Positions 14,866-39,245 of a stretch of DNA of 41,956 nt are shown here, piece after piece. How positions within the stretch are numbered: position 1 is the stretch's first letter; each line of letters starts with the position of its first letter. The stretch covers positions 1 to 41,956 of the IMG/VR virus record IMGVR_UViG_3300031951_000394; one strand, given 5' to 3'. The notes beneath the pieces are model-generated. The model searched no databases and was not told where the DNA came from. It saw only the letters and a list, made by a program, of their open reading frames with translations. The stretch is from a virus. A program made the position numbers and the translations under genes.

Positions 14866-14886
14866 TATTATATTGTAGTTATTTTG

Positions 14887-15336: not shown

Positions 15337-15342
15337 AATATT

Positions 15343-17325: not shown

Positions 17326-17341
17326 AGTGGGTAAAAATAAA

Positions 17342-17371
17342 TGTGGGAGAGTAATCTCTTACTCTCCCACA
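17342..17371 (-). terminator. Intrinsic terminator with GAGA tetraloop
   Basis: Perfect 13-bp stem (17342-17354 and 17359-17371) closed on the minus strand by GAGA, a GNRA loop, followed within a few nt by a T-rich stretch. It ends transcription of 17399-17884 before the 660-aa gene. Confidence 0.88.
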
Positions 17372-17398
17372 CTATTAATTACAATTTTTTATATCGGA

Positions 17399-17884
17399 TT
17401 AACCGATAGTTTTAAACACCGCTTGAAGAATGTCTTCACGGTATTTTGCCAGTTTCTTCTGTGCACCATTAAAGTTGGACACAGTCACATCAATAATATT
17501 TTTCTTACCTTTCTTACTAATTCCCACAGCGATATGTGCACGACGATTTGCGTTCAGCACTTTAGAGATGGGTGACTTAGTCGTACGAGTACGAATTACA
17601 GTATTAGATGCCTTCGTAGCAACTGCACCACCTTGGAGGCGGGCAGTCAACATAAAGGTAGGTTCTTCTGCATTAGCAAGCTTATCGCGAACTTCCTGAA
17701 TTTCAGAATGATCGTAGTTCTGGAACATATATGGAGAACCATTAAGGTAAACCCACTTACCAGCTTTAGTAACTTGCTGCATGATAAGGTCCATAGCTTC
17801 GTCAAGAGTACCGACGAAATCAGTATGACCGCTAGCATCTGCAATTTGACCTTTGATTTGAATTTGGCTTTGAGGAGTATTCAT
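17399..17884 (-). CDS. Hypothetical basic protein, 161 aa
   Basis: Not recognised. The C-terminal half is basic (A-R-L-Q-G-G-A-V-A-T-K...R-T-R-T-T-K; N-A-N-R-R-A-H-I-A-V-G), suggesting nucleic-acid contact, and the middle is Tyr/Asn-rich. It has an unusual leader with five tandem TTTAG repeats (17891-17915, opposite strand) and is closed by a very strong terminator, so it is likely an abundant, separately controlled product. It ends in T-I-G. Confidence 0.75.
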   Translation of the reverse strand: MNTPQSQIQIKGQIADASGHTDFVGTLDEAMDLIMQQVTKAGKWVYLNGSPYMFQNYDHSEIQEVRDKLANAEEPTFMLTARLQGGAVATKASNTVIRTRTTKSPISKVLNANRRAHIAVGISKKGKKNIIDVTVSNFNGAQKKLAKYREDILQAVFKTIG

Positions 17885-18593: not shown

Positions 18594-19325
18594 TTAGTGG
18601 TTTAAGAATTGAATGTTTTTGAGTCGGATTTTGAAGTTATCGACGCATAAGCGACATTTACTACAAGCTCCTTCTTTGTTTGTATTTTTAACTTTTCCAG
18701 TGATCTCAGGGCATTTTACCCAACGATATTTTTCGTTATCAGGTGCAGTATTTCCAAGCCAAGCTAAAGCTAATCGAGGATTTTTATCTTTATTTTCTTC
18801 GTAAACTTTTAACATAGTTTCAAAGTTTACAGGATCGCAACTTAAATATACACTTAAGTTATTTATTCCTAATAAATGCTTAACATACTCGTGTGATCGA
18901 GTATAAACCCAAAATGTCACAGTTGGAAATTCTTTTATAATTTCTGCCCATGCTTTCGTGTAATCTTCAGAAAAGAAATCACCAGAATAATGTAGTCGAA
19001 AATACAAGTCTTCACCCTTTGATTTTTGGATGAAGACTTGTATCGTCTTACGACATACATCTTTGATCTCTTCTAATGTTTTTCCTTTTACCAATGCTGT
19101 ATTCTCTTCGAGCACAACACCAACATTTTTATAAATAGCGGTTATCTTAGCCATGTAACATGTTTGGCGTTTGAGGCCATCTCGAACATCGAGACAGCCT
19201 CCTTTGCCACAAGTTGCACCAGGACAAGTACCACCGTTTTCAGGTAATCCAAAATTCAATCCAAATGTATTGTAATGATTTGAACGAAATTTGGTTTTAC
19301 CATTATCGGATAACTTAAAACTCAC
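18594..19325 (-). CDS. GP88-like Cys-rich protein (DUF5131/radical-SAM-related?)
   Basis: 243 aa, starting at GTG (19323-19325), the only start before the conserved region; overlaps the ParB-like gene by 11 nt. Residues 33-60 hold cysteines in T-C-P-G-A-T-C...G-C-L...T-C-Y-M. Then F-R-L-H-Y-S-G-D-F-F (about 107-117), F-W-V-Y-T-R, and a C-terminal C-S-K-C-R-L-C. This arrangement matches phage GP88-type proteins, thought to be related to DUF5131/radical-SAM-like folds, though the canonical C-x3-C-x2-C is absent. The function is unknown; metal or FeS binding is probable. Confidence 0.72.
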   Translation of the reverse strand: MSFKLSDNGKTKFRSNHYNTFGLNFGLPENGGTCPGATCGKGGCLDVRDGLKRQTCYMAKITAIYKNVGVVLEENTALVKGKTLEEIKDVCRKTIQVFIQKSKGEDLYFRLHYSGDFFSEDYTKAWAEIIKEFPTVTFWVYTRSHEYVKHLLGINNLSVYLSCDPVNFETMLKVYEENKDKNPRLALAWLGNTAPDNEKYRWVKCPEITGKVKNTNKEGACSKCRLCVDNFKIRLKNIQFLNH

Positions 19326-20351: not shown

Positions 20352-23132
20352 TTAGTGGTCCCACTCCCAAATTTTCTTTTCGAAGTTCCACTTAGTTTCC
20401 TTAGAGAAAATCTTTTCTTTCCCTTTCCATCTATCAGATACAACCATTTCCATACCTAAAGCATCGCCAGTTGCAATACGAACTTTGTCTGTAAAATACA
20501 TCTTACAAAGTTCAGGAAAATAGTTATCATTCATCATATCTTTATGTATTATCCAGTAATTAGCATCGTGAACTACATTTACTGGTTTTATATATTTCAT
20601 CCAAACTCCATCTTCAATCATGGCCTTTTTCATTTGCACAGAGATGTCCCACATAAATAACGCAAGTTCACTAGCAATCGGAAATGCCAAAGATTGATTT
20701 ACCCAACCAGATTTAATAGCTGGATCAGAGCAAAGTTCAAAGTTATAAACCATACCTCGCATATTTGTGATGCGGTGTTCTTCGTGGACTTCTCGTTCAC
20801 ATTTGTTACGATAATCCATATATGTTTTATAACGTTCCCAAGTCTTTAAAGCATACTCGATAAGATCAAGATCAACCAATTCACCACTTTCTGCATAAAT
20901 TTCAGCTTGAATAGGGATAGCCGCACTCATTAATCCTGCTGTATATGCAACTCTGAATGTAATGGATTTAGATGTAACATACTTAGATGCAGAATCTTTT
21001 GTTAACGTAGGATCTTTAAAATAATCCCGCATTTTTGTAGTGTGGAAACCTCCTTGTAAAATATCTTTTATATAGTCTGGATCTTTACTTAAGAAAGCAG
21101 CAATAGCTAAGTCGGCCCCAGCTACGTCAACTTCTGCAAAGTAATAATCTTTATGACCAGCATAAAATATATTTCTAATGTTTTTAGGTGTATCTAACCC
21201 GCAACGTGTAAAGATTGCTGGAATGTGTGACAAAACCTTTGAAGCAGGGTTTTGAACATTTGGTTTAGAGGAACTCCTGAAGTTATCAAGGCACTCATAG
21301 AAATCAGCATGAATAGCTTTATCGTTTGCGAGGGCTGCCCAATACGAAGATTTCAAAGGTTCTTCTTCTCTATCCTCAGGATCAATGAGATCTTCAAAAT
21401 CTTCATGATCAAAGTCAACTCCCTGCGTGCTAAGAAACTTGTTAGAGAAAACACTAACACGAGCTAAATCCAGATACGTTCTTACTATATCATATTTTTT
21501 AGATAATTCTTCGTTATCAGGATCTTTCTTTAATTCCGCAGCAAGTTGAAATCTTATGGAAGCCATAGACTTACCATTTGCCGAAGGCTTATATTGTTTT
21601 TTGGTTACCTCCTTTTGCTTGTCATACCAAGCTTTAGGTTTTGCCTTACCTTTTTTTACGTAATAAGCTGGAGTAAGTTTTAATAACTCAAAGAATAGAT
21701 AATTTTTATCTATAGAAGACCTTGGATTAAAGTCTTTACGTAAACCTTTTTTCTTAGTTTCTTCTTCTCCTATTTCCGCCTCACTTAACTCAAACTTCTG
21801 TGTATCAAAACCAAGTTCACGAGTATATGTCATAAGTTGCTCAAATAAGATCTTATAACAATTTTGATACTGTTCTGTAAGCTTGGTCATACATTCGATA
21901 TCAATAGGAATACCTGTCGCTTCCATATCAAGTAGATAGTTCGATAATGGTAAGTATGTTTGAAAATAATAATTTCTTACTTTTTCTGGTACATACTTAA
22001 TCATTTCACTTCTCATATTTAAACAAGCTTCACGATGTGATACCGCGTCACCTGCACAGTAATCAAGAAATAATTCATTGTCTAAGAAATACAACTCAGA
22101 CATTTCTTCTTTCTTTAGACTATGTGTTTTAAGTGCTCTAGTCAACCTATTATAATAAGGTCTGTAATTAGTAAACTGACGTATACCAACTTCCAATCCT
22201 TTGCCATAACGACTATCAAAGAAAGCCACAGCCTTCATACCATCAAAACCCAAAGTTTCTTCAGGTAAGTTAAATCCTTTAGCTCTTAACCGTTTGTCGT
22301 CTGCCCTAATGTTCCAACCAAGACGATCTGCCTTTGGATGTTCTAACATCACTTTCATCGAATGTAACAGTTCAATATTCTCTGTAGTTTTATCCTCACT
22401 TATAATGGGTAGGATATAAGCTTTATCGGGCTCACAAGAATACTGAAATGTATACATCATTTCATCTTTGCCGAATTTTCCTTTCCACTCAGCATCATAA
22501 CCAATATGAAACTCACCTTTGTCAATATAACCTTGAAGTATTTTTTTGTTTTCTTCAGGATCAGTAACTACTTGATATGTAAAAGGTCTATATTTTAATG
22601 TACCGTTTACATATCTTTTTGCTAATACAAAATGTGAAATAGCATCTGGCCTTAACTTCGGATCAACTCTATAAATCTGCCCTGGAGCGTATGTAGCCAT
22701 AACTGGTCCGTAAGGACTATCAATAATTTCTCCGAGAAAGTCTGAGTGTTTAACAACCTCTTTCATTACACGTTTGAACACTTCAGCTCCTAACGCAATG
22801 ATTAGTTTTGGTTTTATCTCAGCAATTTCAGCATCTAATTCTGCCGCACATTCTTCTATCTGCTCTGGAGAAGGTTTATCCTTGCTCCCGATGCCATACT
22901 TTACCATTGTAGTAAAGAAACAGTCTTCTTCTTTAATACCTGCAGTTTTTAAATTACCCATCAATTCATCAGAGGAAAAATAATCTCTTTTTTCTTGAGA
23001 ACGATAATGTAGTTCAGTATTACGAACATCCTCAAAAGCAGGATGTGAAGAAATAATTAATATCTTCGCTTCCGTATCACCAAACCCAGATAACCAAACT
23101 TTTCCGTTCCTCTCTTCATTTTCTGTAATCAT
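20352..23132 (-). CDS. DNA polymerase, family A, fused to UDG-like N-terminal domain
   Basis: 926 aa, three domains. About 1-175: uracil-DNA-glycosylase family 4-like fold (I-I-S-S-H-P-A; T-M-V-K; L-I-I-A-L-G-A-E). About 205-380: DnaQ-like 3'-5' exonuclease with D213-x-E215, N274...D278 and Y-C-x-x-D362. About 560-900: polymerase, with S-K-P-N-V-Q-N (622-628), motif A D669-V-A-G-A-D-L, motif B around K722, motif C V-H855-D856-A857. Bacteriophage SPO1 polymerase is the known example of this fusion. Here motif C has Ala where HDE is usual. ATGA overlap with the helicase gene. Confidence 0.93.
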   Translation of the reverse strand: MITENEERNGKVWLSGFGDTEAKILIISSHPAFEDVRNTELHYRSQEKRDYFSSDELMGNLKTAGIKEEDCFFTTMVKYGIGSKDKPSPEQIEECAAELDAEIAEIKPKLIIALGAEVFKRVMKEVVKHSDFLGEIIDSPYGPVMATYAPGQIYRVDPKLRPDAISHFVLAKRYVNGTLKYRPFTYQVVTDPEENKKILQGYIDKGEFHIGYDAEWKGKFGKDEMMYTFQYSCEPDKAYILPIISEDKTTENIELLHSMKVMLEHPKADRLGWNIRADDKRLRAKGFNLPEETLGFDGMKAVAFFDSRYGKGLEVGIRQFTNYRPYYNRLTRALKTHSLKKEEMSELYFLDNELFLDYCAGDAVSHREACLNMRSEMIKYVPEKVRNYYFQTYLPLSNYLLDMEATGIPIDIECMTKLTEQYQNCYKILFEQLMTYTRELGFDTQKFELSEAEIGEEETKKKGLRKDFNPRSSIDKNYLFFELLKLTPAYYVKKGKAKPKAWYDKQKEVTKKQYKPSANGKSMASIRFQLAAELKKDPDNEELSKKYDIVRTYLDLARVSVFSNKFLSTQGVDFDHEDFEDLIDPEDREEEPLKSSYWAALANDKAIHADFYECLDNFRSSSKPNVQNPASKVLSHIPAIFTRCGLDTPKNIRNIFYAGHKDYYFAEVDVAGADLAIAAFLSKDPDYIKDILQGGFHTTKMRDYFKDPTLTKDSASKYVTSKSITFRVAYTAGLMSAAIPIQAEIYAESGELVDLDLIEYALKTWERYKTYMDYRNKCEREVHEEHRITNMRGMVYNFELCSDPAIKSGWVNQSLAFPIASELALFMWDISVQMKKAMIEDGVWMKYIKPVNVVHDANYWIIHKDMMNDNYFPELCKMYFTDKVRIATGDALGMEMVVSDRWKGKEKIFSKETKWNFEKKIWEWDH

Positions 23133-27804: not shown

Positions 27805-27963
27805 TTAGTCTACTACGATGTTGTCTTGGTTTCCTTTATTTGATCTAAGGGAACCAAAGCTAAATAATTTTTTAATCTTTTCTTTTAAGTATTTTCGCAA
27901 CTCAGGTTTTTCTACTAAGAAATTTGTGAAAATACCTGCGGCTAATAATGTAAGCTCAATCAT
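27805..27963 (-). CDS. Tiny membrane-like protein A, 52 aa
   Basis: Frame from ATG 27961-27963 (inside the end of SbcC, 8-nt overlap) to TAA 27805-27807. Residues 1-16 are hydrophobic (MIELTLLAAGIFTNFLV), then K-P-E-L-R-K-Y-L-K-E-K, a basic stretch and a polar tail. It may be a one-pass membrane protein with cytoplasmic basic helix. The neighbour at 27699-27803 repeats the same plan, so the two look like tandem paralogues. Confidence 0.62.
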   Translation of the reverse strand: MIELTLLAAGIFTNFLVEKPELRKYLKEKIKKLFSFGSLRSNKGNQDNIVVD

Positions 27964-30034
27964 TGTATTCTTCTATTTGTCCTAAGGATATGACATGATC
28001 CACAACCTCAGAAAGCATTGGATCATGATCAATAATTATTATTTGTTGTAACTTATCTGCAGATTTTAATTTTTTAATAATATCAAAATATGCTTTTCTA
28101 TTTGTAGTGTCTAAGTGTGTAGTCCCTTCATCAATAATCATTAGAGGAAAAGACTGGCTGAATAATTCATGTAGTGCTAAATGTAACGCAATACCTACTT
28201 GAATTTCTTGACCTCCTGATACGGAAGGTAAACGTCGTCCATCATCGTCATACATTTCAATTTTAAAATTATCCGCAACTTTAGCAGTATAAGGCATATT
28301 AAAATCTTGAAGTTTTTCTTGAAGGTATTCGGAAACAATATCCGCATAGTCTAAAATAAGCTTTCTAGGAAAGTTGGAAGTCTGTAGAATATCGTTCGCA
28401 ATGTTTAATAATTCACTGTAACGATTTCTTTTTTTATTTTTTTCTTGGTTATCTTTAGACCTATTTAACCGTGTATTTAAATCATTTAACGCAAATTCTT
28501 TCATTTGCAGTGCTGTTTGTTTTACTTGTACTTGACGAGTATTTTCAACATGTTGATTTAATGCACTAGCCAATATTCCTTTCTCTTCGTTTAGATCTTC
28601 ACCAACATATTCAGCTAAGTTCAGTAATTCAATTTTGAATTTATTTAATTGTCCTTCCTCAGAAGAAATTCTGATCTTTACATCAGCCAAAGCCTTTTCA
28701 TATTCGCGATAACTTTCAATAACTTCTGAAAACGAAGTCAAATCATCTTCACTAAACTCAATGTTTTTAAATTGTGTTAGCGATTTTCTCAGACTTTTAA
28801 TTTGTTCCAAATGCTCCTCTACGTTAGCAATTTCGGTACTTTTTTTCGTTATTTCTAACTCTAACTCTTTGAGAGATGCGGATACTTTCTTAAACTCTGC
28901 TAATAACTCTTGCTTTTCCTGTTCAAGAAGATTGACTAATTCCGTTACAGAATGTAGCGGTTGTCCACATGTATGACACATGGCCTTATCTTTCAAATCT
29001 TTGAATTTACCAATTTGAATTGTGTTAGTATCTATCTTTACTTTTAAAGTAATCGACAAATCGTACAATTCTTTTTGTTGTTTGTGTAACTCTTTTAATA
29101 GCTCACGATTATTTTCAAGCAAATCAAAATCAATTTTTATTGTTTCTAAATTTGCCAATGAACGTTCGTAATTAATTTTTTGTTGATATAAGGTTTTATG
29201 TTGAAGAAGTGTATTCTTCTGTTTCTCATAATCTACAATATTAATTGACTTAAGAATATCTGAGTATTCCTTCTGTTCATTACGTAAAATCTCAAGACGT
29301 TCTTCACATCTTTCAATAGCTTCGTTTACAATTATACGAGAACCAGCATCAGCCTCACACTTTGAAAGAAACCGTAACTGTGCTTTAAAGGCTTCCACAT
29401 CAGATTCTTCTAATAACGGAAGCTCTTGTATTTCACAATGTAACACATCAATTTCTTTTTGTGTGTTATGTATTTCATTTCTCAGATCTTCTATATCTTC
29501 TATAGGAAGTAGTGGAGGTAGTTGTTTTAGATAATTTTTAGATATCAAACTACGTACCTTTTCGGTATTAGGAACTAAGAATATTTTTTGAAAAATCTTT
29601 TCCCTAACAGTACTATCACCGGAAAACAATAATGGAATATTACCTTGCTGAGCAATAATTACTTTTGAAATAATCTCCGGTCCAACTTGCAATAGCTTAT
29701 CCCAAAGTTCTTTTACTTCCCCGGACTTCTTTAATGGTATCCCACCGTCATAAGCTAACTGTACCTTTGATCCACTTAGCCATCTTTGTAATCTGCCTTT
29801 TTTTCCGTTTAAAATAAACTTTATAGTAACATCACCACTGTCGGCACCCAAAGAAATAGCGTCATCTTTAGTACCATTGAAAAGACTTCCAGTCAAAGCA
29901 AATAGAATTGCCTCAATGATCGACGACTTACCGGTACCATTATCTCCAATAATACCGGTGACTCCATCCTTTAATTTCAGCTTTAACTGTCTATGTTTTC
30001 TGAAATTATTTAATTCTAAATCAGTAATTATCAT
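27956..30034 (-). CDS. sbcC: SbcC/Rad50-like recombination ATPase (gp46-like)
   Basis: 692 aa. N-terminal Walker A G30-D-N-G-T-G-K-S37, long coiled coils either side of a zinc hook C-H-T-C (about 352-355), then the ABC signature S-G-G-Q (about 603) and Walker B L-M-I-I-D-E. This dimeric ATPase pairs with the SbcD/Mre11-type nuclease at 31667-32776 to process DNA ends and start recombination-dependent replication. Its ATGA overlap with the 118-aa gene shows one transcript. Length is typical of phage gp46. Confidence 0.95.
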   Translation of the reverse strand: MIITDLELNNFRKHRQLKLKLKDGVTGIIGDNGTGKSSIIEAILFALTGSLFNGTKDDAISLGADSGDVTIKFILNGKKGRLQRWLSGSKVQLAYDGGIPLKKSGEVKELWDKLLQVGPEIISKVIIAQQGNIPLLFSGDSTVREKIFQKIFLVPNTEKVRSLISKNYLKQLPPLLPIEDIEDLRNEIHNTQKEIDVLHCEIQELPLLEESDVEAFKAQLRFLSKCEADAGSRIIVNEAIERCEERLEILRNEQKEYSDILKSINIVDYEKQKNTLLQHKTLYQQKINYERSLANLETIKIDFDLLENNRELLKELHKQQKELYDLSITLKVKIDTNTIQIGKFKDLKDKAMCHTCGQPLHSVTELVNLLEQEKQELLAEFKKVSASLKELELEITKKSTEIANVEEHLEQIKSLRKSLTQFKNIEFSEDDLTSFSEVIESYREYEKALADVKIRISSEEGQLNKFKIELLNLAEYVGEDLNEEKGILASALNQHVENTRQVQVKQTALQMKEFALNDLNTRLNRSKDNQEKNKKRNRYSELLNIANDILQTSNFPRKLILDYADIVSEYLQEKLQDFNMPYTAKVADNFKIEMYDDDGRRLPSVSGGQEIQVGIALHLALHELFSQSFPLMIIDEGTTHLDTTNRKAYFDIIKKLKSADKLQQIIIIDHDPMLSEVVDHVISLGQIEEYND

Positions 30035-30387
30035 AAAATATTGCTTACTTCATAAGTTAAATCTCGATAAATGCAAATATCTGAGTCATCTCCAAATCCG
30101 ATAAATAAATGCTCAATATCAAATTGTTTTAATGCATCAGAAACATCTCTGCTAATATCTGTATTATGATCTAACATACTACCATAATTGCCATTAATAT
30201 TTGGCGTATTGATGGTGTGGTATACTGAATATTTTTTAGTGTGACTGCTACCACATTTACTTGTAAATTGATTCCACCCAAAAGATGTTAATTCTTGGTG
30301 TTTATCAAAAACTTGTTTTGCTTGTTTTAAAACTAAGTTAGTTATTTGTTCTTTGATTTCGCTTTTTGAATTTTGAATATTTCCCAT
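30031..30387 (-). CDS. Hypothetical protein, 118 aa
   Basis: No family recognised. It has a helical N-terminal half (E-I-K-E-Q-I-T-N-L-V-L-K-Q-A-K-Q-V-F-D-K) and an Asp/Gly/Tyr-rich second half (F-G-D-D-S-D-I-C-I-Y-R-D). One-base overlap with the Thg1 gene and ATGA overlap with SbcC place it inside the operon. Confidence 0.7.
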   Translation of the reverse strand: MGNIQNSKSEIKEQITNLVLKQAKQVFDKHQELTSFGWNQFTSKCGSSHTKKYSVYHTINTPNINGNYGSMLDHNTDISRDVSDALKQFDIEHLFIGFGDDSDICIYRDLTYEVSNIL

Positions 30388-31112
30388 TACTCAGAAACAG
30401 AAGACATTTTCTCATCAGGATTATATCTCGTAATAATTTCTGGTCTGTTCTCTGTAAACAATGGAGCCGCTGTAATCTCTACAGTGTTTTTATTGGCTAG
30501 ATAACCGTGTGTTGTCCAAGGTTCTGCTTCTAACCAAGAAAATCCATGTGTTTCCTTCAGCATCTTTTTAATTTCCTCGCAACTTTTTTCATGTAATTCT
30601 TTACTTGAAAAATAATGCCTACCATATTGCTGAACACTATTTCTAATTGCATCTTGTTGTCTCCAAACCAAGTAATTGCAAAGCTCATTGGTGTCAGGTA
30701 AAACTAACAAACGAGCATCAAAAAAGGCTAGCTCAGTATCTTTTCTAGTCCAGGCAAATTCTTTGTTAAACTTTGCTGTAAATATACTAGAAGAAACTGA
30801 TACAATTTTTTGTAAATTATTATCAAACCAAGCTTGTGTGTTTAAATCTAAACCATCGTTAAGAACTATCGAAACTTCATCGCTCTGGATGTACGCAAAT
30901 CTTGCAGTACCTCCGATCTCTTTCATAACCCGTACAGCAGCTTTATTCATAGCCTCAGCAACATTTGTATCATAGGGCTTCCTAGCATTTGCTAAGTATG
31001 TATGAAAGGCCTTCCCGTCAATTCTAATAACCTTAGGTGCACGACGGATTGCTTTTATACGGAGCGAATCTTCATAACCTTTCATTCTATCTCCAAGAGA
31101 ATCAGCTTTCAT
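30387..31112 (-). CDS. thg1: tRNA-His guanylyltransferase (Thg1-like)
   Basis: 241 aa. Adds a guanylate to the 5' end of tRNA in the 3'-5' direction; relatives (TLPs) repair 5'-truncated tRNAs. Motifs: R-I-D32-G-K-A-F-H-T-Y, then Y-I-Q-S-D78-E79-V-S (metal ligands), F-D-A-R-L-L-V-L-P, and Y-L-V-W-R-Q-Q-D-A-I-R-N-S-V-Q, all hallmarks of the family. A 5'-repairing polymerase beside RNA ligases and Pnkp supports an RNA-repair role, an inference that needs biochemistry. Confidence 0.95.
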   Translation of the reverse strand: MKADSLGDRMKGYEDSLRIKAIRRAPKVIRIDGKAFHTYLANARKPYDTNVAEAMNKAAVRVMKEIGGTARFAYIQSDEVSIVLNDGLDLNTQAWFDNNLQKIVSVSSSIFTAKFNKEFAWTRKDTELAFFDARLLVLPDTNELCNYLVWRQQDAIRNSVQQYGRHYFSSKELHEKSCEEIKKMLKETHGFSWLEAEPWTTHGYLANKNTVEITAAPLFTENRPEIITRYNPDEKMSSVSE

Positions 31113-31459: not shown

Positions 31460-31670
31460 CTTTTAATGTATAAGGTGGTGCTTTGTCACAAATATTATCA
31501 AGCTCAACATCAATTAAATTACTAATTTGTAAATATGATGCTCTAATCTTCTGTTCAAAAGCTTCACTAGTGGGTTTCTTTTTTTCAAAAGATTTAATAA
31601 TCTTTTCAGCCGTCATGAAGTCTTCCAACAGTTTAAAAAGCTTATTGGGTTGTTTGTCAGCCATGTTCAT
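31419..31670 (-). CDS. Hypothetical protein, 83 aa
   Basis: Helical, Lys/Glu-rich protein with no family match. Two ATGs (31668-31670, 31662-31664) are possible; the first was chosen because it gives the ATGA overlap with the SbcD stop seen elsewhere in this operon. Confidence 0.65.
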   Translation of the reverse strand: MNMADKQPNKLFKLLEDFMTAEKIIKSFEKKKPTSEAFEQKIRASYLQISNLIDVELDNICDKAPPYTLKDEPGTDETTSERI

Positions 31671-32776
31671 AAATATTTTTCTTTAAGTTCGTCTAACACC
31701 ATAGCAGGGTCTTCTAAATTGTTCAACAATGAATGTGTAAAATCAAAAGCTTCTTTCTCAGGAACTAATTCTTTTAACACCTTTTCAATTCGATCGTTAG
31801 TTTTTAATTCAGATCGAAGATTAATTACTTGTTTTTCTTCAGTTTCGCCGTCTTCCATATTTCTTCTTTTTATTGCTAACTTTTTAACAATACCTACTTC
31901 ATATAAAGGACTTATTAACGAAAGTTTTTCTTCACAAGTCTTATCATATTCCACGATAATAACAGGTTTTTTTCCTTCGTGTGCTTTGAAAAAAGCCGCA
32001 AACTTATTAATCCAATTAATAGGTTCCAAAGAATCTCCTAAATAAAGACGTACAAACTTTCTGTCTAGCTTAAAAGGATGTCTTTTGATTTCCTTACCAT
32101 CAAAATACAATATTCCTGTTTTCTGTCCTACCTCGTCTGTCTTTGTTACACCCAAACTTCCACAATAACCAATATAAGGTAATGGGCTTCTTTTCCCGGT
32201 TGGATCGTGTATCTTTGAATCGGTAGGTACGTGAATATCACCTAATATTACACCTTTTAAACTAGGGTATGTTTCAAGCAAATTCAGTTGTTTTATATCA
32301 AGTAGTTTCTTTTCTTCACTGAATTTAAACAACTCTGGAACATGACCATGAAGAAAGATCCATTCGACCTTATTTTTATATGGTACTTCTGCTAATTTTG
32401 GAATTAGAAGTGGCGAATGGTCACAATAATCCAAACCAACAAATTGTTCACTTATTTGTTGTACAGGCACAATACCGCTTAACTGTACCCACGATGCTCC
32501 ATTTATAGGTTTATCGTGATCTCCAGCAATTCCAGCAATAATGATACCATTTGCGTTTAATTTATCTGACTGTTGTTTTACAAATTTAATTAAATCTGGA
32601 GAAGGTCGATTATGTTCATAAAGGTCACCAGACACAAATACATAATCTACCTTTAAGTCGATTGCAAGATCGACTAAACGAGAAAAATTATCTCGCATAT
32701 CTTGCTCAAGTTCAGGAAGATTAAATAGTTTTAATCCCAAATGAACATCTGCTATTGCTAGAAAGGAATAACTCAT
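31667..32776 (-). CDS. sbcD: SbcD/Mre11-like nuclease (gp47-like)
   Basis: 369 aa. Metallophosphoesterase nuclease motifs in order: A-D-V-H-L-G (about 8-13), V-S-G-D-L-Y (about 49), G-I-A-G-D-H-D (GNHD variant, about 84), H-G-H-V and G-D-I-H (about 190). Partner of SbcC at 27956-30034 for DNA-end resection; the two are split by Thg1 and small genes, an unusual gene order. The C-terminal 100 residues bind SbcC. Confidence 0.93.
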   Translation of the reverse strand: MSYSFLAIADVHLGLKLFNLPELEQDMRDNFSRLVDLAIDLKVDYVFVSGDLYEHNRPSPDLIKFVKQQSDKLNANGIIIAGIAGDHDKPINGASWVQLSGIVPVQQISEQFVGLDYCDHSPLLIPKLAEVPYKNKVEWIFLHGHVPELFKFSEEKKLLDIKQLNLLETYPSLKGVILGDIHVPTDSKIHDPTGKRSPLPYIGYCGSLGVTKTDEVGQKTGILYFDGKEIKRHPFKLDRKFVRLYLGDSLEPINWINKFAAFFKAHEGKKPVIIVEYDKTCEEKLSLISPLYEVGIVKKLAIKRRNMEDGETEEKQVINLRSELKTNDRIEKVLKELVPEKEAFDFTHSLLNNLEDPAMVLDELKEKYL

Positions 32777-33119: not shown

Positions 33120-33314
33120 CTAGAAAATATACATGGCACCACAACTATTGCAACCGTATGTCAAATTATCATCCCACAAATCGTTGCTTCCGCAACACTT
33201 ACATCTGCCAGTAAAATGTCCAGTTGGTTCATTTCCAGGATTATTCTTTTGACGCATCGTAGCTAATTCTCTATCTCTAATGTAATCATTTTCAATATCG
33301 TCAATATCAGGCAT
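33120..33314 (-). CDS. Zinc-ribbon protein, 64 aa
   Basis: Acidic helix at the N-terminus, then C38-x-C40-C41 and C55-x-x-C58 forming a zinc-ribbon knuckle pair (C-K-C-C-G-S...Y-G-C-N-S-C-G). Small zinc ribbons of this kind act as nucleic-acid or protein adaptors. Overlaps the gene at 33307 by 8 nt and lies in the Ycf46/DUF1257 module. Confidence 0.75.
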   Translation of the reverse strand: MPDIDDIENDYIRDRELATMRQKNNPGNEPTGHFTGRCKCCGSNDLWDDNLTYGCNSCGAMYIF

Positions 33315-33564
33315 TTGTTAATTCCCTTTCTAACATATTGTTCATAAGTGTTATTTCCAACTTTATAGCTTCGTCTCTTCGAGGATGAAATCCTAAAACT
33401 TTACCATTACGGATAATTTCCCACACCTGTAATTCGTTATTAAATTCCACATCTGCAGCTCTCTGAATATCCCTGGCACCAATGCCAGGGATATTTTCGA
33501 GAACATTGTCACACAAAGCTTTTACGTTGCCATCTTTATCAATAAAGATTTTACGCTTCGCCAT
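33307..33564 (-). CDS. Small protein with DUF2997-like start and HhH-like segment, 85 aa
   Basis: Begins M-A-K-R-K-I-F-I-D-K-D-G-N, aligning with the start of the DUF2997 gene just upstream (10 of 13 positions). After that, N-I-P-G-I-G-A-R-D-I-Q-R-A (about 24-36) looks like a helix-hairpin-helix tip and the C-terminal helix has R-R-D-E-A-I-K-L-E-I. The IPGIG region is encoded in a perfect 13-bp inverted repeat (33466-33495). Function unknown. Overlaps the upstream gene by 14 nt. Confidence 0.72.
   Translation of the reverse strand: MAKRKIFIDKDGNVKALCDNVLENIPGIGARDIQRAADVEFNNELQVWEIIRNGKVLGFHPRRDEAIKLEITLMNNMLERELTNA
33466..33495 (-). repeat. Perfect intragenic inverted repeat
   Basis: Arms aatatccctggca (33466-33478) and tgccagggatatt (33483-33495) with a 4-nt loop lie inside the 85-aa gene and encode its I-P-G-I-G-A segment. 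On the minus strand no T-run follows. The RNA stem could slow translation, be a processing site or a protein-binding site; it could also be an attenuator. Confidence 0.75.
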
Positions 33565-33760
33565 CGCCTTCGTTTGTTAAAAGATTTTCCTCGGCCTCAC
33601 CTTCGTAATAATTTTCAGTGAGTTGTCGAGAACTTTCTACTGCGGTACCAAGAGCCTTCTCAAAGTTTTTAGTAGCTTCGAGACAATTAGTACCTTCCCC
33701 ACAAACATCTAAGATTGTGGGGTTACCGTTTTTGTCGATTTTAATTTTGATTTTTGCCAT
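33551..33760 (-). CDS. DUF2997 protein
   Basis: 69 aa from ATG 33758-33760 (the longer upstream frame is unsupported). The protein has the family's plan: M-x-K-I-x-I-x-I-x-x-x-G strand, then G-E-G-T-N-C-L-E-A-T-K-N-F-E-K-A-L-G (about 21-38) and Y-Y-E before an acidic tail. DUF2997 genes in bacteria are neighbours of DUF1257 and Ycf46-type AAA genes, and the same set is found here. Biochemical role unknown. Confidence 0.72.
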   Translation of the reverse strand: MAKIKIKIDKNGNPTILDVCGEGTNCLEATKNFEKALGTAVESSRQLTENYYEGEAEENLLTNEGDGEA

Positions 33761-33761
33761 A

Positions 33762-34049
33762 TTATAGATAACGCCAAGTTGAAGGAACAAACCGAAACTT
33801 ATTGTCGATATTGAATCGAATGCGAACGTTGTGAACCTTACGCCCACAACAATCCACAATAAAACGAACAGTCGCATCATAAGTGGTGTCGTTTACCTTC
33901 TTAAAGATTTCGACTGGTACGTAAATTTCATCTGCAGGAGGGTCATCCTGGCTTACAAAATACTGATAAATATCATTTGCCAGCAGCTTATACAATGCCA
34001 AGGTACGCCCATCCAATTCAGGAACAGGCCTTTTAGTTTTATAGTCCAT
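33762..34049 (-). CDS. Hypothetical protein in the Ycf46 module, 95 aa
   Basis: From ATG 34047-34049 (11-nt overlap with the DUF1257 gene); an ORF start further upstream would overlap more. It contains P-V-E-I-F-K-K-V-N-D-T-T-Y-D-A-T-V-R-F-I-V-D-C-C-G-R-K-V and is likely a small mixed fold. No family recognised. It sits between the DUF1257 and DUF2997 genes. Confidence 0.7.
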   Translation of the reverse strand: MDYKTKRPVPELDGRTLALYKLLANDIYQYFVSQDDPPADEIYVPVEIFKKVNDTTYDATVRFIVDCCGRKVHNVRIRFNIDNKFRFVPSTWRYL

Positions 34050-34422
34050 CGTCGGCTTCGATAATGAGTGATCCGTCCGCGAGTTGTTCCATGATTTCGA
34101 CTTCGTCATAATATTCTTTAGTTAGGTTAATTACGTAATCTGTTTTAAGTTTTGCAAACTGTCTTCCGAGGGTTTTTTCAACAGAACCATCAAAAGGATC
34201 ATAATGTAATGATACATTCCCTTGTGCATCTGTTGTGATACCGACGTCATAACCTTTGTTGGGATTATACGCAATATGTTCAAAGACGCGATGCCGCTCT
34301 GGATCACTAGGATACGTACGTATTTTTTGATTTTGTTTGATAATCCAACCTAACTGATTAAGTGTTTTTTCTAACACTGTCCAATTATTAAGTTGTGTTT
34401 TAATTGCTACTGTATGTGACAT
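34039..34422 (-). CDS. DUF1257 (Ycf35-like) protein
   Basis: 127 aa. It begins M-S-H-T-V-A-I-K-T-Q-L, then L-E-K-T-L-N-Q-L-G-W (helix), Y-D-V-G-I, H-Y-D-P-F and a final Y-Y-D-E-V...G-S-L-I-I-E, matching the DUF1257 pattern (M-S-H-x-x-x-I-x-T and Y-D-x-G). In cyanobacteria and some other bacteria this family occurs with Ycf46 and DUF2997. It starts as the preceding gene ends (TAATG). Confidence 0.78.
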   Translation of the reverse strand: MSHTVAIKTQLNNWTVLEKTLNQLGWIIKQNQKIRTYPSDPERHRVFEHIAYNPNKGYDVGITTDAQGNVSLHYDPFDGSVEKTLGRQFAKLKTDYVINLTKEYYDEVEIMEQLADGSLIIEADDGL

Positions 34423-35408
34423 TATAGTTTAATTGCTCTAAAGTATGTGTCTGAAATCGCAGATAAGTCAGACAAGTTATTTGCTTTATCCAATACATTA
34501 GTTAATGCATTATTTAGTTCTGCTAAAGCATCTTTATCGGTTTTATAATTAACGTTTCCAGATACTACTTCCGCTAGTTTTTCAATTTCTTCAGCGACAA
34601 CTTGATCATCTGTAAAATTAAGTTTTCTAAAATTATCAATCTCATCACGAATCATTTGAATGTTAGTTTTTGTAACAACTTCCTTATTTGTGATTTTTTC
34701 GATAACCGAGGTACACATAGTAACCATTTGAGCACGAAGAACCTTTGCAGCATCTTCTGTAAAACGTTCAAGTTTAGTCATTGAAGTTTTATAGTAATCT
34801 GCAAGCTCCTTCTCCATCTCATCTTTAACTTCTTGTTTTGCCTCGTCGCGAGTTATAAGAGATTGGATATCAACCTCGCCAAGCTCCTTCGGCATACGGA
34901 TTTCATATAGTGAGACACTGAAGTTGAATCTTCCGTTAAGCTCCGTTTTTTGTGGATAAAGCGGACGTAAAGAATCTGCCAGTTCTGGGTACTTAGCAAG
35001 GATATCTTCTTTATACGTGTCATAATGTTCGATAAACTTTTCTTTTAGTTTATTGAACTCTTGTCTGATTTTATCTAAGGTGGTTAGTACTTCTTTAACT
35101 TTTTTCTTAGGTACAAAATGCGCTTCTCCGATAGGAAAATCATAAGAATTAGCAGAAAGAAATCTTCTAGCTTTTCCTTCGATCCGAGAGAACTCGTTAA
35201 ACCTCTCCGGGTCTATCAGCATTTTTTTACCTAACTTAAAGATGGCCGGGACAGCTTTATCGTATTCAATATCTTCTTTATTTAAGTGAGTGCTCATGCC
35301 CCACTTGGAGACATGAACACTAACCAAGAAGCCGTCTTGAAAAAGCTTATCGTAATAAGCTTTAACCGAGTCTGTAAGACTGGTTTTATTTTGAACCAAG
35401 GTACTCAT
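34422..35408 (-). CDS. DUF3150-like protein with RAIKL tail
   Basis: 328 aa. The N-terminal part has K-L-G-K-K-M-L-I-D-P-E-R-F-N-E-F-S-R-I-E-G-K-A-R-R-F-L-S-A-N-S (about 57-87), and A-H-F-V-P-K-K-K, consistent with DUF3150, a family accompanying MoxR-type AAA genes. The rest is helical and Glu/Lys-rich. It ends Y-F-R-A-I-K-L, a copy of the recurrent C-terminal peptide. It lies between the AAA+ gene and the DUF1257 gene. Family call is moderate. Confidence 0.72.
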   Translation of the reverse strand: MSTLVQNKTSLTDSVKAYYDKLFQDGFLVSVHVSKWGMSTHLNKEDIEYDKAVPAIFKLGKKMLIDPERFNEFSRIEGKARRFLSANSYDFPIGEAHFVPKKKVKEVLTTLDKIRQEFNKLKEKFIEHYDTYKEDILAKYPELADSLRPLYPQKTELNGRFNFSVSLYEIRMPKELGEVDIQSLITRDEAKQEVKDEMEKELADYYKTSMTKLERFTEDAAKVLRAQMVTMCTSVIEKITNKEVVTKTNIQMIRDEIDNFRKLNFTDDQVVAEEIEKLAEVVSGNVNYKTDKDALAELNNALTNVLDKANNLSDLSAISDTYFRAIKL

Positions 35409-37001
35409 TTAAGCTTTGATTTTTCTAACTTCAGTGAGATAGCTTTTAGCTGCTGTATTTAATACTGCAGGTTTAAGACGACCTTCAACACGACTACGCA
35501 TTGCCTCGATGGCTTCAGCATTAATCTTTGACTGTGGTGTAAGGGCTCTAATTTCTTTCTCAAGATATGTCTGATCAACTTCTTTTCCTTCGGAGAAAGC
35601 AGCAAACATAGCATCTTTAAACACATTATCAATTTCAGCACCAGTAAACTCTTTTGTTAATTTTACTAATGTATCAACATCAAATTTGTTAATATTACGT
35701 TTGAATTTATTGATAACGACAGTAATAACGTCCCGCCGCTCACGCTCATCAGGTAAATCAATCCAAAACAATTCATCAAACCGACCTTTACGAATAAGCT
35801 CGACAGGCAGTGCAAGATGATTGTTAGAAGTGAATATAACGAACGCAGGATTATTGCGATCCGATAACCAACTCAACAAAGTTCCAAAAGAACGTGAGCT
35901 TGTGCCGCTGTCTCCAGCTCCTGATGTTGCTCCAGTATTAAGATATTTCTCAATCTCATCTACAAGAATAACACAACGACCAATAGAATCGACAGTTTTT
36001 GTCATCTGAATAAAGTTGCCTTCGGTCTCTCCAACATACTTACTAAATAGACCACCAAGATCTAATTGAAATAGCGGAAATTTAAACTCATTAGCAATTG
36101 CCTTACTAATCAAAGTTTTACCACAACCTGCAATACCTGCTAATCCTAGTCCTTTAGGATAAGGAAGTCCGTAATCACGAGCTTCTTTAGAAAAGGCATT
36201 CTTACGTGTTTGGACCCAACGCTTAATACCGTCAAGACCACCAACGTTATCGAACGAAACATCTGTTTCAATGTGATTTAGCATTCCACCTTTCTTAACT
36301 TGTAGAATCTTTTCGTTAAATACAGATTTTACAAAAGATGCGTTGAACGCTTTGTTTTCAACAATAGCAAAAGCAAAAGCGTTTTCTACTTCAGATGCAG
36401 TCATACCTTTCGCAGCTTCAATTGCTGCTTCTTTGGTGAGATCATCTATTTCGATTTTATCTTTTCCTTTTCTTGATTGATTTACTTCTGTAGCTACTTC
36501 ATTTAGTTTTATAGCAATGCTATCACTATCTGGAAGCTTATAATCAATTAATTGAATATCTTTTTGTAATTCTGTAGGAATTTTAACTATCGGAGATGTG
36601 ATCAAGATCATATTTCTATGAAACTTTAATGTCTCTAACAGATTTTTTAGACTACGAATGTATTCGATATTTTTTAAAGGTTTCGAAAACTGCAAGTGAA
36701 AATCCTTCAGAATAAAGATATTTTCGGAAGGCTCATTAGCCGCCAGTTCCTTAATAACTTTAAACATTTTAAGAGGTTCCTCAGTTTCCTTGAACTCTTT
36801 TACTCGACCGTCAGTACGTTCAGTTAGTCCGTCTTGACTGTCCCATTGGAATACCCTACAACCGGGATCACCAGTTGAGGGTTTACGAAACATACCTGAT
36901 GTAATTTCTTTTGTAATTCTAGCCTCTTCAAAGGTTTGAATCCACAATGCGGGGTAAGCAGCATTATTATAATGTTTTAGTCTTTCGACAAAAGATGCCA
37001 T
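35409..37001 (-). CDS. ycf46: Ycf46-like AAA+ ATPase
   Basis: 530 aa. The N-terminal 230 residues (Y-P-A-L-W-I-Q-T-F-E-E-A-R; V-F-Q-W-D-S-Q-D-G) match the Ycf46-type nonATPase region; the AAA domain has Walker A G-I-A-G-C-G-K-T (289-296), Walker B V-I-L-V-D348-E349, sensor T-S-N-N, and an arginine finger in R-K-G-R-F. AAA+ proteins of this type remodel proteins. Neighbours DUF3150-like, DUF1257, DUF2997 suggest its substrates or adaptors. It ends E-V-R-K-I-K-A, close to the recurrent peptide. Confidence 0.92.
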   Translation of the reverse strand: MASFVERLKHYNNAAYPALWIQTFEEARITKEITSGMFRKPSTGDPGCRVFQWDSQDGLTERTDGRVKEFKETEEPLKMFKVIKELAANEPSENIFILKDFHLQFSKPLKNIEYIRSLKNLLETLKFHRNMILITSPIVKIPTELQKDIQLIDYKLPDSDSIAIKLNEVATEVNQSRKGKDKIEIDDLTKEAAIEAAKGMTASEVENAFAFAIVENKAFNASFVKSVFNEKILQVKKGGMLNHIETDVSFDNVGGLDGIKRWVQTRKNAFSKEARDYGLPYPKGLGLAGIAGCGKTLISKAIANEFKFPLFQLDLGGLFSKYVGETEGNFIQMTKTVDSIGRCVILVDEIEKYLNTGATSGAGDSGTSSRSFGTLLSWLSDRNNPAFVIFTSNNHLALPVELIRKGRFDELFWIDLPDERERRDVITVVINKFKRNINKFDVDTLVKLTKEFTGAEIDNVFKDAMFAAFSEGKEVDQTYLEKEIRALTPQSKINAEAIEAMRSRVEGRLKPAVLNTAAKSYLTEVRKIKA

Positions 37002-37049
37002 AACCTAGTGTTGTTCATAATTATTATCTAAGTGACGTTATATCGTTTA

Positions 37050-37247
37050 TTAATTATTCACCTTTGAAAGACATATTGTTGGTACGTCTTTAAACCCAAT
37101 TCCAAAAAATAAAACTGTTGAATAGCTTTCTTCTCCAGATAAAAAAGGTTTGATAAAGCTCTCCTGGAAAATACCTTTACGGCCTTCAAGAGCTTTATCA
37201 AACATTTCAAGTTGAGTATATTCCACTAAATCATTTTTTTGTAGCAT
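37050..37247 (-). CDS. Hypothetical protein, 65 aa
   Basis: Small protein with no recognised family: helical N-terminus and a hydrophobic V-L-F-F-G-I-G-F (about 45-52). It overlaps the 45-aa gene upstream by 17 nt and precedes the AAA+ gene, so it could be part of that module. The 48-nt gap to the AAA+ gene has no hairpin. Confidence 0.65.
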   Translation of the reverse strand: MLQKNDLVEYTQLEMFDKALEGRKGIFQESFIKPFLSGEESYSTVLFFGIGFKDVPTICLSKVNN

Positions 37248-37368
37248 TAGTCTTTACGATTTGATCGTATTTTTTTAATTCAGTTTGGTAAGCACATCTT
37301 ACTATTAATGGCTTTCCATTTATTTGTTTGTAATCCTTTGATTGATAAAACCTGGTTGACTTACTCAT
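37231..37368 (-). CDS. Tiny basic protein, 45 aa
   Basis: Frame from ATG 37366-37368 to TGA 37231-37233. Lys-rich (M-S-K-S-T-R-F-Y-Q-S-K-D-Y-K, V-R-C-A-Y-Q-T-E-L-K-K-Y). The 17-nt overlap with the following gene's start is typical of this operon and supports it as real. It is the first minus-strand gene after the divergent promoter region. Function unknown. Confidence 0.55.
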   Translation of the reverse strand: MSKSTRFYQSKDYKQINGKPLIVRCAYQTELKKYDQIVKTNATKK

Positions 37369-37502: not shown

Positions 37503-39245
37503 ATGCATGACACGTCCGTTGTAACAGCCGGTATAAACCGACTGTTTGAGTCAAAAAATCCGAACTCCATCTTCCTCGCACGACAGCTGTTATTTACACA
37601 CGTACCAGCTTCGTATTTTATTGAACGTTATCTTCAAGATAACGAAGGAAGGGCTCAGAACCTAGAATTGTTTCCCATGATGCGGCAGATTTATGATCAC
37701 TTACCGCAAAAGTTACTATTAAAATGTAGTAGGAAAACTCTAAAATCAACTCTGTTAAGTAATATCATAACGTTAAACATGATCCGCTGGAATCATTATA
37801 AGATGCTTTATGTTGCTCCTCAGGAAGCAACAACTAAATACTTTTCCAGTAACTATGTAAGTCCTCGATTTGAAAGCCCTGAATTGAAGAAGATCTTCGT
37901 TAAAGGCTGGTACAAGAACGATGTTTATGAAAAAATATTCGCCGACACAAATAGCGCAGTACTGTTTAAATATGCAAAAGAAGACGCTACTCGCGTCCGT
38001 GGTCCTGCTACAGACCAAAATATGCATGATGAGGTTCAGGATATTCTATTCGAAATCCTACCGATCATTAAGGAAACCATGGCCCTCTCTCGTTATAAGC
38101 GTGAGACGTTTGCTGGCACCCCTTTGACAACAGATAATACTATTAATGAATTATGGAAGCGCTCAACTCAATTAGAGTGGGCTACCAAATGTGAAGCATG
38201 TAATCATTGGAATATGCTAACTATTGAAAACAATCCAATGAAAATGATACAAAAGCATGGTTACTCCTGTGCGAAATGCGGGAAAGTGATTAACACAACT
38301 AAAGGAGAATGGGTATCTGCCGTAGCAAATCCTCAAGACATAGATTTAGTTGGTTATCATTTAGCCCAGCCGTTATTACCTCACTTTAACCAGTCTCCTA
38401 AAGAGTGGAAAGAGATATATCAGAAAGTTACGGACGGTAAATATGGAACGCATCAGATCTTCAACGAAGTATTTGGGTTGGCTTATGATGTAGGAAGTAA
38501 GCCTATAACTAAAGAACAATTAGCTTCTTTATGTATATTAGGTCCTACACGAGAACAAGACAGTGATGAATTACGTATCCTCAATAAAAACCGTAATCGT
38601 TACATAAAGTATGTAACAGGTGTAGATTGGGGAGTAAATTCAGTCACTTCTCGAACCGCTGTAGTTCATGGTGCCATTCGTTCAGATGGTGTGTTTGAAG
38701 TCTTTGATGCTAGAATATTTGATACTTTGGATTATGAAGAGCATATAAAAGTTATCGCAGAAATTTCCAATAAAGTAAATTCCATTGTCGTAGCAGACAG
38801 TGGGCCAGATCCTATCAGAGGACATAAATTGGCTGAAATTACTTCTCCGCAAAGAGCTTTGTTAGTTCGATACGGTAATGGAAAGCTTGTGCAATCTTAT
38901 GATATGCCTAAAGGTGCTCCCAACTGGAAAGCTAATCGCTATGTTCTTCATCGAAGCGACTGTTTATCTTTTACCTTTAGAATGCTCCAAGGAGGAAAAA
39001 TCCTATTCCCTCAATGGTCAGAAATGGATAAAGCAATGGAAGATATTCTTGCCGAATTTATTGAAGTCAAAGATAAACCTGGAGCGCTGAATGCTGAACT
39101 AATGTACAGCCATGCTCCGCATAAACCTGATGACTTTCTTCATGCTTTAACGTTCGCTATTGTTGCTGCCTATTCTGCAATCGGTGATCCTTCCCTAACC
39201 GGACCTTCCTCATCAGCACGCGAATTAAACGGGATTGATGATTAA
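37503..39245 (+). CDS. terL: Terminase large subunit
   Basis: 580 aa, the motor that packages DNA into proheads, with an ATPase and a nuclease domain. N-terminal Walker A-like C75-S-R-K-T-L-K81-S-T departs from the normal G-K-S/T (Leu before Lys). Walker B is in N-M-H-D-E-V (about 173). A zinc ribbon C-E-A-C...C-A-K-C-G (about 230-265) is inserted before the nuclease, whose acidic residues are in T-G-V-D-W-G (about 377), V-A-D-S-G-P-D and K-P-D-D-F-L-H-A. Only plus-strand gene, its stop abuts the stop of the convergent gene. Confidence 0.92.
   Translation: MHDTSVVTAGINRLFESKNPNSIFLARQLLFTHVPASYFIERYLQDNEGRAQNLELFPMMRQIYDHLPQKLLLKCSRKTLKSTLLSNIITLNMIRWNHYKMLYVAPQEATTKYFSSNYVSPRFESPELKKIFVKGWYKNDVYEKIFADTNSAVLFKYAKEDATRVRGPATDQNMHDEVQDILFEILPIIKETMALSRYKRETFAGTPLTTDNTINELWKRSTQLEWATKCEACNHWNMLTIENNPMKMIQKHGYSCAKCGKVINTTKGEWVSAVANPQDIDLVGYHLAQPLLPHFNQSPKEWKEIYQKVTDGKYGTHQIFNEVFGLAYDVGSKPITKEQLASLCILGPTREQDSDELRILNKNRNRYIKYVTGVDWGVNSVTSRTAVVHGAIRSDGVFEVFDARIFDTLDYEEHIKVIAEISNKVNSIVVADSGPDPIRGHKLAEITSPQRALLVRYGNGKLVQSYDMPKGAPNWKANRYVLHRSDCLSFTFRMLQGGKILFPQWSEMDKAMEDILAEFIEVKDKPGALNAELMYSHAPHKPDDFLHALTFAIVAAYSAIGDPSLTGPSSSARELNGIDD

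Follow-up and report, generated by a model that had tools for sequence, protein, structure and literature searches.

This locus raises the question of what a Ycf46-type AAA+ ATPase, packed together with DUF3150, DUF1257 and DUF2997 proteins, does for a bacterial virus. To our knowledge, algal plastids and cyanobacteria retain Ycf46 and Ycf35, whose biochemical function is not settled, and we know of no function for the DUF1257, DUF2997 and DUF3150 families. The window analysed is the whole 41,956-nucleotide stretch of IMG/VR record IMGVR_UViG_3300031951_000394 (positions 1 to 41,956), and its relevant features are collected in Table 1. The module forms a minus-strand run of overlapping genes (33120-37001), in which the AAA+ ATPase, DUF3150, a DUF1257 relative and DUF2997 are accompanied by small proteins of two other conserved families and by a zinc-ribbon protein. 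Open reading frames, Pfam and PHROG profiles and alignments confirmed that the genes named in the earlier note are all present in this single run. The same block is kept in the same gene order in two other viral genomes (L004 and L002), where SbcD follows it and a terminase gene that is read divergently stands in front. Since gene content and order agree in both genomes, with most block proteins 33-58% identical to those of this phage, the block is more than a chance arrangement. The claim that such a module occurs in other phages was likewise borne out by the neighbourhood search, which recovered the block in L004 and L002 and showed DUF3150 adjoining the AAA+ gene in a total of 17 viral contigs, this phage included; homologue searches of viral records found the module scattered across phages. 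A 45-aa open reading frame (37231-37368) is weak, and promoter and terminator scans gave chance level only.

Table 1. Features of the module and of related genes in the window.
Feature	Position	Strand	Basis
E1-like (ThiF) adenylating enzyme, 203 aa	14254-14865	-	PF00899 (6e-15)
JAB/JAMM peptidase, 149 aa	14887-15336	-	PF14464 (1.5e-10)
Candidate ubiquitin-like protein (Ubl)	17399-17884	-	Beta-grasp residues 1-82, LQGG at 83-86, then a 75-aa extension
SbcC/Rad50-like ATPase	27956-30034	-	PF02463 (2e-16), PF13558 (4.5e-4)
SbcD/Mre11-like nuclease	31667-32776	-	PF00149 (4.7e-10)
Zinc-ribbon protein, 64 aa	33120-33314	-	Two CxxC pairs in the translation
Small conserved protein, 85 aa, RASxVEF...W motif	33307-33564	-	Separate family, no DUF2997 Pfam match
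DUF2997 protein, 69 aa	33551-33760	-	PF11211 (5e-6)
Small conserved protein, ~95 aa, no known family	33762-34049	-	Homologues in L004, L002 and L029
DUF1257 (Ycf35-like) protein, 127 aa	34039-34422	-	hhalign to cyanobacterial DUF1257; overlaps the DUF3150 stop
DUF3150 protein, 328 aa	34422-35408	-	PF11348 (1.5e-25)
Ycf46-type AAA+ ATPase, 530 aa	35409-37001	-	PF00004 (1.2e-24), PF17862 (8e-7), phrog_8638 (5e-125)
Small gene upstream of AAA+, 65 aa	37050-37247	-	Homologue in the same place in L004

Judged by its sequence, the ATPase is a Cdc48-like AAA+ protein with intact Walker A (GIAGCGKT at 289), Walker B (VILVDEIEK at 344), sensor 1 (TSNN at 391) and arginine-finger (RKGRFDE at 404) motifs and an N-terminal region of its own of about 240 aa. 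The closest solved structures to residues 247-486 are those of CDC48/p97 D2, which fits the protein-remodelling motor proposed earlier for this locus. Its orthologues are 54% identical in L004 and 47% in L002. The AAA-ATPase of Corndog-cluster mycobacteriophages (Firecracker gp100) resembles it at 31% identity over 94% of its length, and a partner gene of about 270 aa comes next, but DUF1257 and DUF2997 were not found in that cluster. An assignment of this partner to DUF3150 was not supported (hhalign probability 3%), nor was that of the 250-aa protein downstream of the AAA+ gene in 56 AAA-only loci to a divergent DUF3150 (also 3%).

The smaller proteins required more sensitive comparison. No Pfam match above threshold was obtained with this phage's own DUF1257 protein; a profile of three viral sequences matches cyanobacterial DUF1257 with an hhalign probability of 95.7% (E 9e-9), and the L002 orthologue reaches PF06868 at 2.8e-4 (21.5 bits against a cut-off of 22.2). 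Its AlphaFold model has a pLDDT of 93, and structure comparison of this model gave no significant match to a known fold, and the searches returned no solved relative; weak matches to helix-grip folds were set aside. DUF2997 scores above the PF11211 cut-off (26.7 against 24.1 bits), has homologues at 49 non-redundant loci, and its start is better placed at 33760, the full reading frame reaching 33880. The second protein that had been described as DUF2997-like is not a member of that family; this 85-aa protein has homologues at 13 non-redundant loci, mostly in module-bearing phages. The start of the ~95-aa protein was moved to 34049 from a full reading frame of 115 aa that reaches 34109, and the zinc-ribbon protein had no homologue among the fetched loci.

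Pairings of an AAA+ gene with an adjacent DUF1257 and/or DUF2997 gene are found repeatedly, in cyanobacteria, in Planctomycetes, on Bacillota plasmids and in an archaeal MAG contig, in agreement with the idea that Ycf46, DUF1257 and DUF2997 genes tend to be linked in bacteria. The phage module belongs to this Ycf46-type set: its ATPase is of the same type, 30-38% identical to the cellular proteins across most of residues 1-530 and thus nearly full length, and DUF1257 and DUF2997, which often adjoin the ATPase gene in cells, both lie nearby. Compared to the cellular set, the phage has DUF3150 and two more small families in addition, is tied to SbcCD, and is without the radical-SAM/4Fe-4S companion that is frequent, though not universal, in cells.

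DUF3150 extends the comparison to plasmids. Single-sequence searches of named phages and viral contigs with DUF3150 and DUF1257 gave no match, and their relatives there were found with alignments as queries. For DUF3150, the searches returned no solved structural relative and no mention in the open-access papers searched. Beyond the viral contigs, DUF3150 is joined to the AAA+ gene in Planctomycete and Verrucomicrobial islands. On plasmids it stands between an AAA_5/CbbQ motor gene and a CobT-like VWA partner. In three of four loci the system follows genes for RecT and a YqaJ/lambda-type exonuclease; SSB is ahead in two of the four and RadC behind in one. DUF3150 is thus common to two AAA+ motors, each near recombination genes, because its partner is a Ycf46-type AAA+ in viruses and islands and an AAA_5/CbbQ protein on plasmids. 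The plasmid and phage systems share a DUF3150 homologue between the AAA+ gene and other partners, with recombination genes alongside. They differ in that the plasmid motors are AAA_5 proteins with CbbQ_C, whereas this phage's ATPase is a classic AAA protein (PF00004 with AAA_lid_3), and in that DUF1257 and DUF2997 are present here in place of a CobT-like VWA. The resemblance to AAA+, VWA and DUF3150 systems that had been suggested for this phage therefore stands as far as such systems exist on plasmids; those use MoxR/CbbQ-type AAA_5 motors, unlike the ATPase here. The phage's own VWA protein was rejected as a module member: it lies 25 kb away, contains a VWA domain only and does not resemble CobT, BLAST does not match it to the plasmid VWA, and it was not found in most sister phages. 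The earlier note as a whole is partly supported; it overlooked both the recombination genes around DUF3150 systems and the E1/JAB/ubiquitin-like genes of the same phage.

We tentatively favour the reading that the block is an ATP-driven remodeller acting in recombination with dedicated DUF subunits, a role that genome context makes possible rather than probable. The SbcD gene adjoins the module in L002, L004, L024, L029 and L030, and the linkage of SbcD and SbcC to the block holds in this phage's clade. The archaeal MAG contig (L145) has the order DUF1257-DUF2997-AAA-SbcD-SbcC, SbcD-like genes lie near the AAA+ gene in contigs L077 and L078, and in the Planctomycete and Verrucomicrobial versions a PD-(D/E)XK (RecB/Cas4-like) nuclease adjoins DUF3150. 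Module neighbours in other phages include RecA, SSB, RNase H, primase, DnaB and ligase. DNA genes abound in the early regions of phages in any case, so that such proximity in phages is weak evidence. Many bacterial versions are linked instead to a radical-SAM/4Fe-4S protein, which speaks against a role in recombination, and we know of no recombination link for cyanobacterial and plastid Ycf46 or Ycf35. We postulate that the AAA+ protein would assemble into a hexameric ring, with DUF3150, DUF1257 and DUF2997 as its dedicated adaptor or regulatory subunits. When the phage recombines its DNA, or replicates it in a recombination-dependent manner, such a ring may act with SbcCD and RecA to take apart or remodel the nucleoprotein complexes at DNA ends. 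DUF3150 would be the shared subunit that couples either motor to recombination genes, the Ycf46-type here and the MoxR/CbbQ-type with a CobT-like VWA on plasmids.

An alternative that we consider unlikely is that ubiquitin-like tagging feeds the ATPase: the E1 would activate the Ubl, JAB would trim and recycle it, and the Cdc48-like ring with DUF3150, DUF1257 and DUF2997 would extract or unfold the tagged proteins. The three genes occur in the same operon order in this phage, G001 and G008. The LxGG motif of the candidate Ubl is conserved in three homologues (G001 ends in LQGGC, and G008 has LVGG and an extension), its AlphaFold topology is beta-beta-alpha-beta-beta-alpha-beta, and matches to the ubiquitin-like fold are weak but consistent. 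In alignments, JAB residues E20, H80, H82, S90 and D93 are invariant, as are E1 residues G15, G17, G20 and C160 in seven phages; the best NCBIfam model for the E1 is PRTRC_ThiF (5e-9, below its cut-off). Like the PRTRC / type 6d bacterial ubiquitin-like operons (PMC1779556), this phage has adjacent E1-like and JAB genes, together with a candidate for a glycine-ending Ubl, but no E2-like or ParB gene was recognised in it. A search of solved structures gave no useful relative for a 660-aa protein, and neither it nor a 345-aa protein has a Pfam match. In four other phage genomes, at most ~8 kb separates the AAA+ gene from the E1 and JAB genes; JAB-ThiF is ~2-8 kb from AAA-DUF3150 in G012 and G019, and the order JAB-ThiF-x-x-ParB-AAA-RecA-DUF2997-rSAM-DUF1257 is contiguous in G013 and G020, each with a Ubl candidate upstream (that of G013 read as ending in VAGGF), whereas the E1/JAB/Ubl genes here are ~15 kb from the module. 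ThiF is present in 8 of 26 module-bearing viral records and in none of 27 AAA-only records (G002 left out; an uncorrected Fisher test had taken 28), but the latter are nearly all of one clade, so that the contrast is not independent, and a kinship-corrected test leaves two to three independent pairs (sign test p = 1). Moreover, G004 and G005, phages close to this one, show no ThiF or JAB, these profiles match none of the cellular module loci, and Crass-like phages, which carry ThiF, do not appear by name in the AAA+ matches. JAB matches in JP1 and L338C were set aside by judgement as probable tail-assembly JAB domains. The fuller version, a phage-encoded pathway of E1, JAB and a precursor di-glycine Ubl whose conjugates the ring and its DUF adaptors would process on replication or recombination complexes, we hold to be slightly less likely again.

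It is improbable that the ATPase is a virion assembly chaperone, by which a component of the particle would be loaded, folded or terminated in the manner of Pvc15, the loading AAA+ ATPase of contractile injection systems (PMC11495950). A Treponema plasmid locus has a related AAA+ gene with a phage baseplate gene, and the AAA+ gene comes after lysis or tail-region genes in Samunavirus SM1, L338C and Agrobacterium phage JP1, of which SM1 and JP1 also have DUF1257/DUF2997 genes; in this phage's clade, however, the block lies in the DNA-metabolism region, divergent from terminase, and no tail genes adjoin it. More improbable still is a phage copy that manipulates the process served by the cellular Ycf46/Ycf35 genes, in redox or iron-sulphur homeostasis. 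The cyanobacterial cluster duf2997-ycf35-fed7 (PMC4284462) and the radical-SAM/4Fe-4S genes that accompany many modules in cells and some in phages point in that direction, but no ferredoxin or radical-SAM gene adjoins the module here. A radical-SAM profile search of this phage found none. The least credible reading is that the machine dismantles host antiviral complexes. Conflict between phages and hosts often involves AAA+ remodellers and accessory modules, and the module's distribution is scattered; no defence or anti-defence gene was recognised among the block's neighbours, and its relatives occur in ordinary bacterial chromosomes and plasmids.

For the recombination reading, the existence of phages that carry the set as one block, together with DUF3150 shared by two AAA+ motors near recombination genes, gives the module a testable role. 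With E1, JAB and candidate Ubl genes present in this phage too, one can ask whether bacterial viruses couple a ubiquitin-like tag to an extracting ATPase; if true, the pathway would amount to a viral tag-and-extract counterpart of ubiquitin-p97.

The viral record is 41,956 bases long, with a G+C content of 34.6%. Within the block of minus-strand genes, each gene overlaps or abuts its neighbour. Gene calls and family searches agree with the composition listed in the earlier note, save that the supposed second DUF2997-like protein belongs to another family.

Genes of the module, its flanks and the ubiquitin-like (Ubl) operon in the window
Feature	Position	Strand	Remarks
AAA+ ATPase	35409-37001	minus	first of block reading down from 37001
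DUF3150 protein	34422-35408	minus	passes Pfam's own cut-off
DUF1257 relative	34039-34422	minus	profile alignment, three viral proteins
Small protein, ~95 aa	33762-34049	minus	
DUF2997 protein	33551-33760	minus	passes Pfam's own cut-off
85-aa protein	33307-33564	minus	family other than DUF2997
Zinc ribbon	33120-33314	minus	
123-aa ORF		minus	between zinc ribbon and SbcD in reading order
SbcD	31667-32776	minus	downstream of block
SbcC	27956-30034	minus	downstream of SbcD
GpA-like terminase	37503-39245	divergent from block	PF05876 1.6e-10
E1-like ThiF protein	14254-14865		PF00899 6e-15
JAB peptidase	14887-15336		PF14464 1.5e-10; full set of JAMM residues
Candidate Ubl	17399-17884		predicted beta-grasp topology, ends LQGG, then 75-aa extension

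The AAA+ protein matches PF00004 (1.2e-24) and, as its best PHROG, 8638 (5e-125). Its Walker A, Walker B, sensor and arginine-finger motifs are all intact, and residues 247-486 have the D2 rings of CDC48/p97 as their closest solved structures. The DUF1257 protein alone falls below Pfam's cut-off, and its orthologue in viral locus L002 scores 21.5 bits where the cut-off is 22.2; a three-virus profile matches cyanobacterial DUF1257 with a probability of 95.7% (E 9e-9). AlphaFold models it confidently (pLDDT 93), and no solved structure matches the model significantly.

These genes, whose families are already known, form a conserved and widespread phage module, in which dedicated small partners accompany an intact AAA+ motor. 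Within the window's clade, the module is linked to SbcCD. The phage neighbourhood search proposed in the earlier note recovered the same block in the genomes G003 and G001 (loci L004 and L002), with the order AAA-DUF3150-DUF1257-95 aa-DUF2997-85 aa-SbcD and a divergently read terminase ahead. AAA+ relatives occur in at least 468 viral stretches (alignment-based scan). By iterated profiles on fetched loci, DUF3150 adjoins the AAA+ gene in 17 viral contigs, the window counted, and in two Verrucomicrobial contigs (L119 and L124), a trait requiring about six changes by parsimony on the AAA+ tree. In AAA-only phage loci (L003 and 55 more), the AAA+ gene is followed by a conserved ~250-aa protein of the RPGLLVSLKT family, for which hhalign against DUF3150 gave a probability of 3%. 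Bacterial linkage of Ycf46, DUF1257 and DUF2997 had been claimed rightly, because the association recurs among the best 80 cellular AAA+ loci, where DUF1257 and/or DUF2997 is encoded close by in many cyanobacteria, Planctomycetes, Gastranaerophilales, Paenibacillus and a putative archaeal MAG contig, and on PGAP-annotated plasmids, often with a 4Fe-4S protein. A search of open papers returned no description of the DUF3150 combination or its phage setting.

Elsewhere in the window, a Thg1 tRNA-His guanylyltransferase gene (30387-31112; PF04446 1e-28) sits between those of SbcC and SbcD, and no homologue was found in G001 or G003. Both these genomes encode homologues, similar in length, of a 926-aa fusion protein (20352-23132) that joins a uracil-DNA glycosylase to a family A DNA polymerase. 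Polynucleotide kinase, nucleotidyltransferase and RNA ligase genes (4111-5741 and 1166-2260) may constitute an RNA repair set.

The window also carries genes of a putative ubiquitin-like system, in the order GP88-Ubl-660 aa-JAB-E1-345 aa-RecA common to the window, G001 and G008. The best NCBIfam model for the E1 is PRTRC_ThiF (5e-9, under the model's cut-off). Across seven phage homologues, the glycine-rich motif of the E1 and its residues D48, D50, N56, Q60, K71, D104 and Cys160 do not vary; Cys160 is probably the thioester cysteine. The Ubl homologue of G001 terminates in LQGGC, and that of G008 has LVGG plus an extension. Confidence in the Ubl model is modest (pLDDT averages 61, with ~65-88 across the Ubl part). 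Fold searches with it gave weak matches (PDB E-values from 0.03 upwards), which in the PDB are mostly to ubiquitin-like folds; among viral proteins, the best match carries a ubiquitin-like annotation. The 660-aa protein encoded between Ubl and JAB, within the E1-JAB-Ubl stretch at 14254-17884, is conserved and matches no family. The GP88 family protein (18594-19325; PF17338 5e-35) contains a cysteine cluster and adjoins the Ubl gene also in G001 and G008.

Extraction by the AAA+ motor of Ubl-coupled proteins is an unlikely reading of the module. In its favour, JAB-ThiF-x-x-ParB-AAA-RecA-DUF2997-rSAM-DUF1257 runs unbroken in viral genomes G013 and G020, with a Ubl candidate upstream (end read as VAGGF in G013), and JAB-ThiF lies ~2-8 kb from AAA-DUF3150-x-DUF1257 in G012 and G019. 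ThiF is present in 8/26 module-bearing viral records versus 0/27 AAA-only records, a contrast that is not independent because the latter are nearly all one clade. However, E1 and JAB were not found in G004 and G005, phages near the window's, and Ubl-system profiles matched none of the cellular module loci. Such coupling may exist, but as an optional trait. The same JAB-to-DUF1257 order, resembling a PRTRC cassette attached to the Ycf46 module, is contiguous in viral contigs L060 and L090 (156-178 kb). For the module itself, a role in virion assembly appears improbable, one in Fe-S or redox homeostasis slightly more so, and one in counter-defence the least probable.

In plasmids from Pseudomonas, Geoalkalibacter and Allochromatium, the DUF3150 gene lies between an AAA_5/CbbQ_C ATPase, accompanied by a WGR protein in one locus, and a CobT-like VWA protein, whereas the phage module combines a Ycf46-type AAA+ with DUF1257 and DUF2997. 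The window's own VWA protein (8402-9376), previously suggested as a partner, appears to stand outside the module: it is 25 kb away, has VWA as its sole recognised domain, gives no BLAST match to a VWA of the plasmid DUF3150 system, and has no homologue in G001, nor was a VWA found in G003, G004, G005, G008, G012 or G019. A small protein at 3728-4108 has a weak WGR domain (PF05406 1e-3); WGR adjoins DUF3150 on the Geoalkalibacter plasmid.

RecT and a YqaJ/lambda-type exonuclease precede the plasmid DUF3150 set in 3/4 loci, two of these with SSB ahead, and RadC follows it in one. A PD-(D/E)XK nuclease adjoins DUF3150 in one Planctomycete genome, two contigs of which place a Ycf46-type AAA+ nearby (one with DUF1257 too), and the same nuclease lies beside DUF3150-DUF1257-DUF2997-AAA in L119. 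SbcD and then SbcC follow the block in the window's clade, DUF1257-DUF2997-AAA-SbcD-SbcC are consecutive in a putative archaeal (Hodarchaeota) MAG contig (L145:929-5103), and SbcD-like genes lie near the AAA+ in L077 and L078. The theme common to these neighbourhoods is homologous recombination and DNA-end processing. From gene context, we infer that an AAA+ motor is linked to these processes through DUF3150, and that in the phage variant a Ycf46-type motor, together with DUF1257 and DUF2997, has replaced the MoxR/VWA motor. We tentatively postulate that the AAA+ module would act as a hexameric protein remodeller on recombination or replication complexes.
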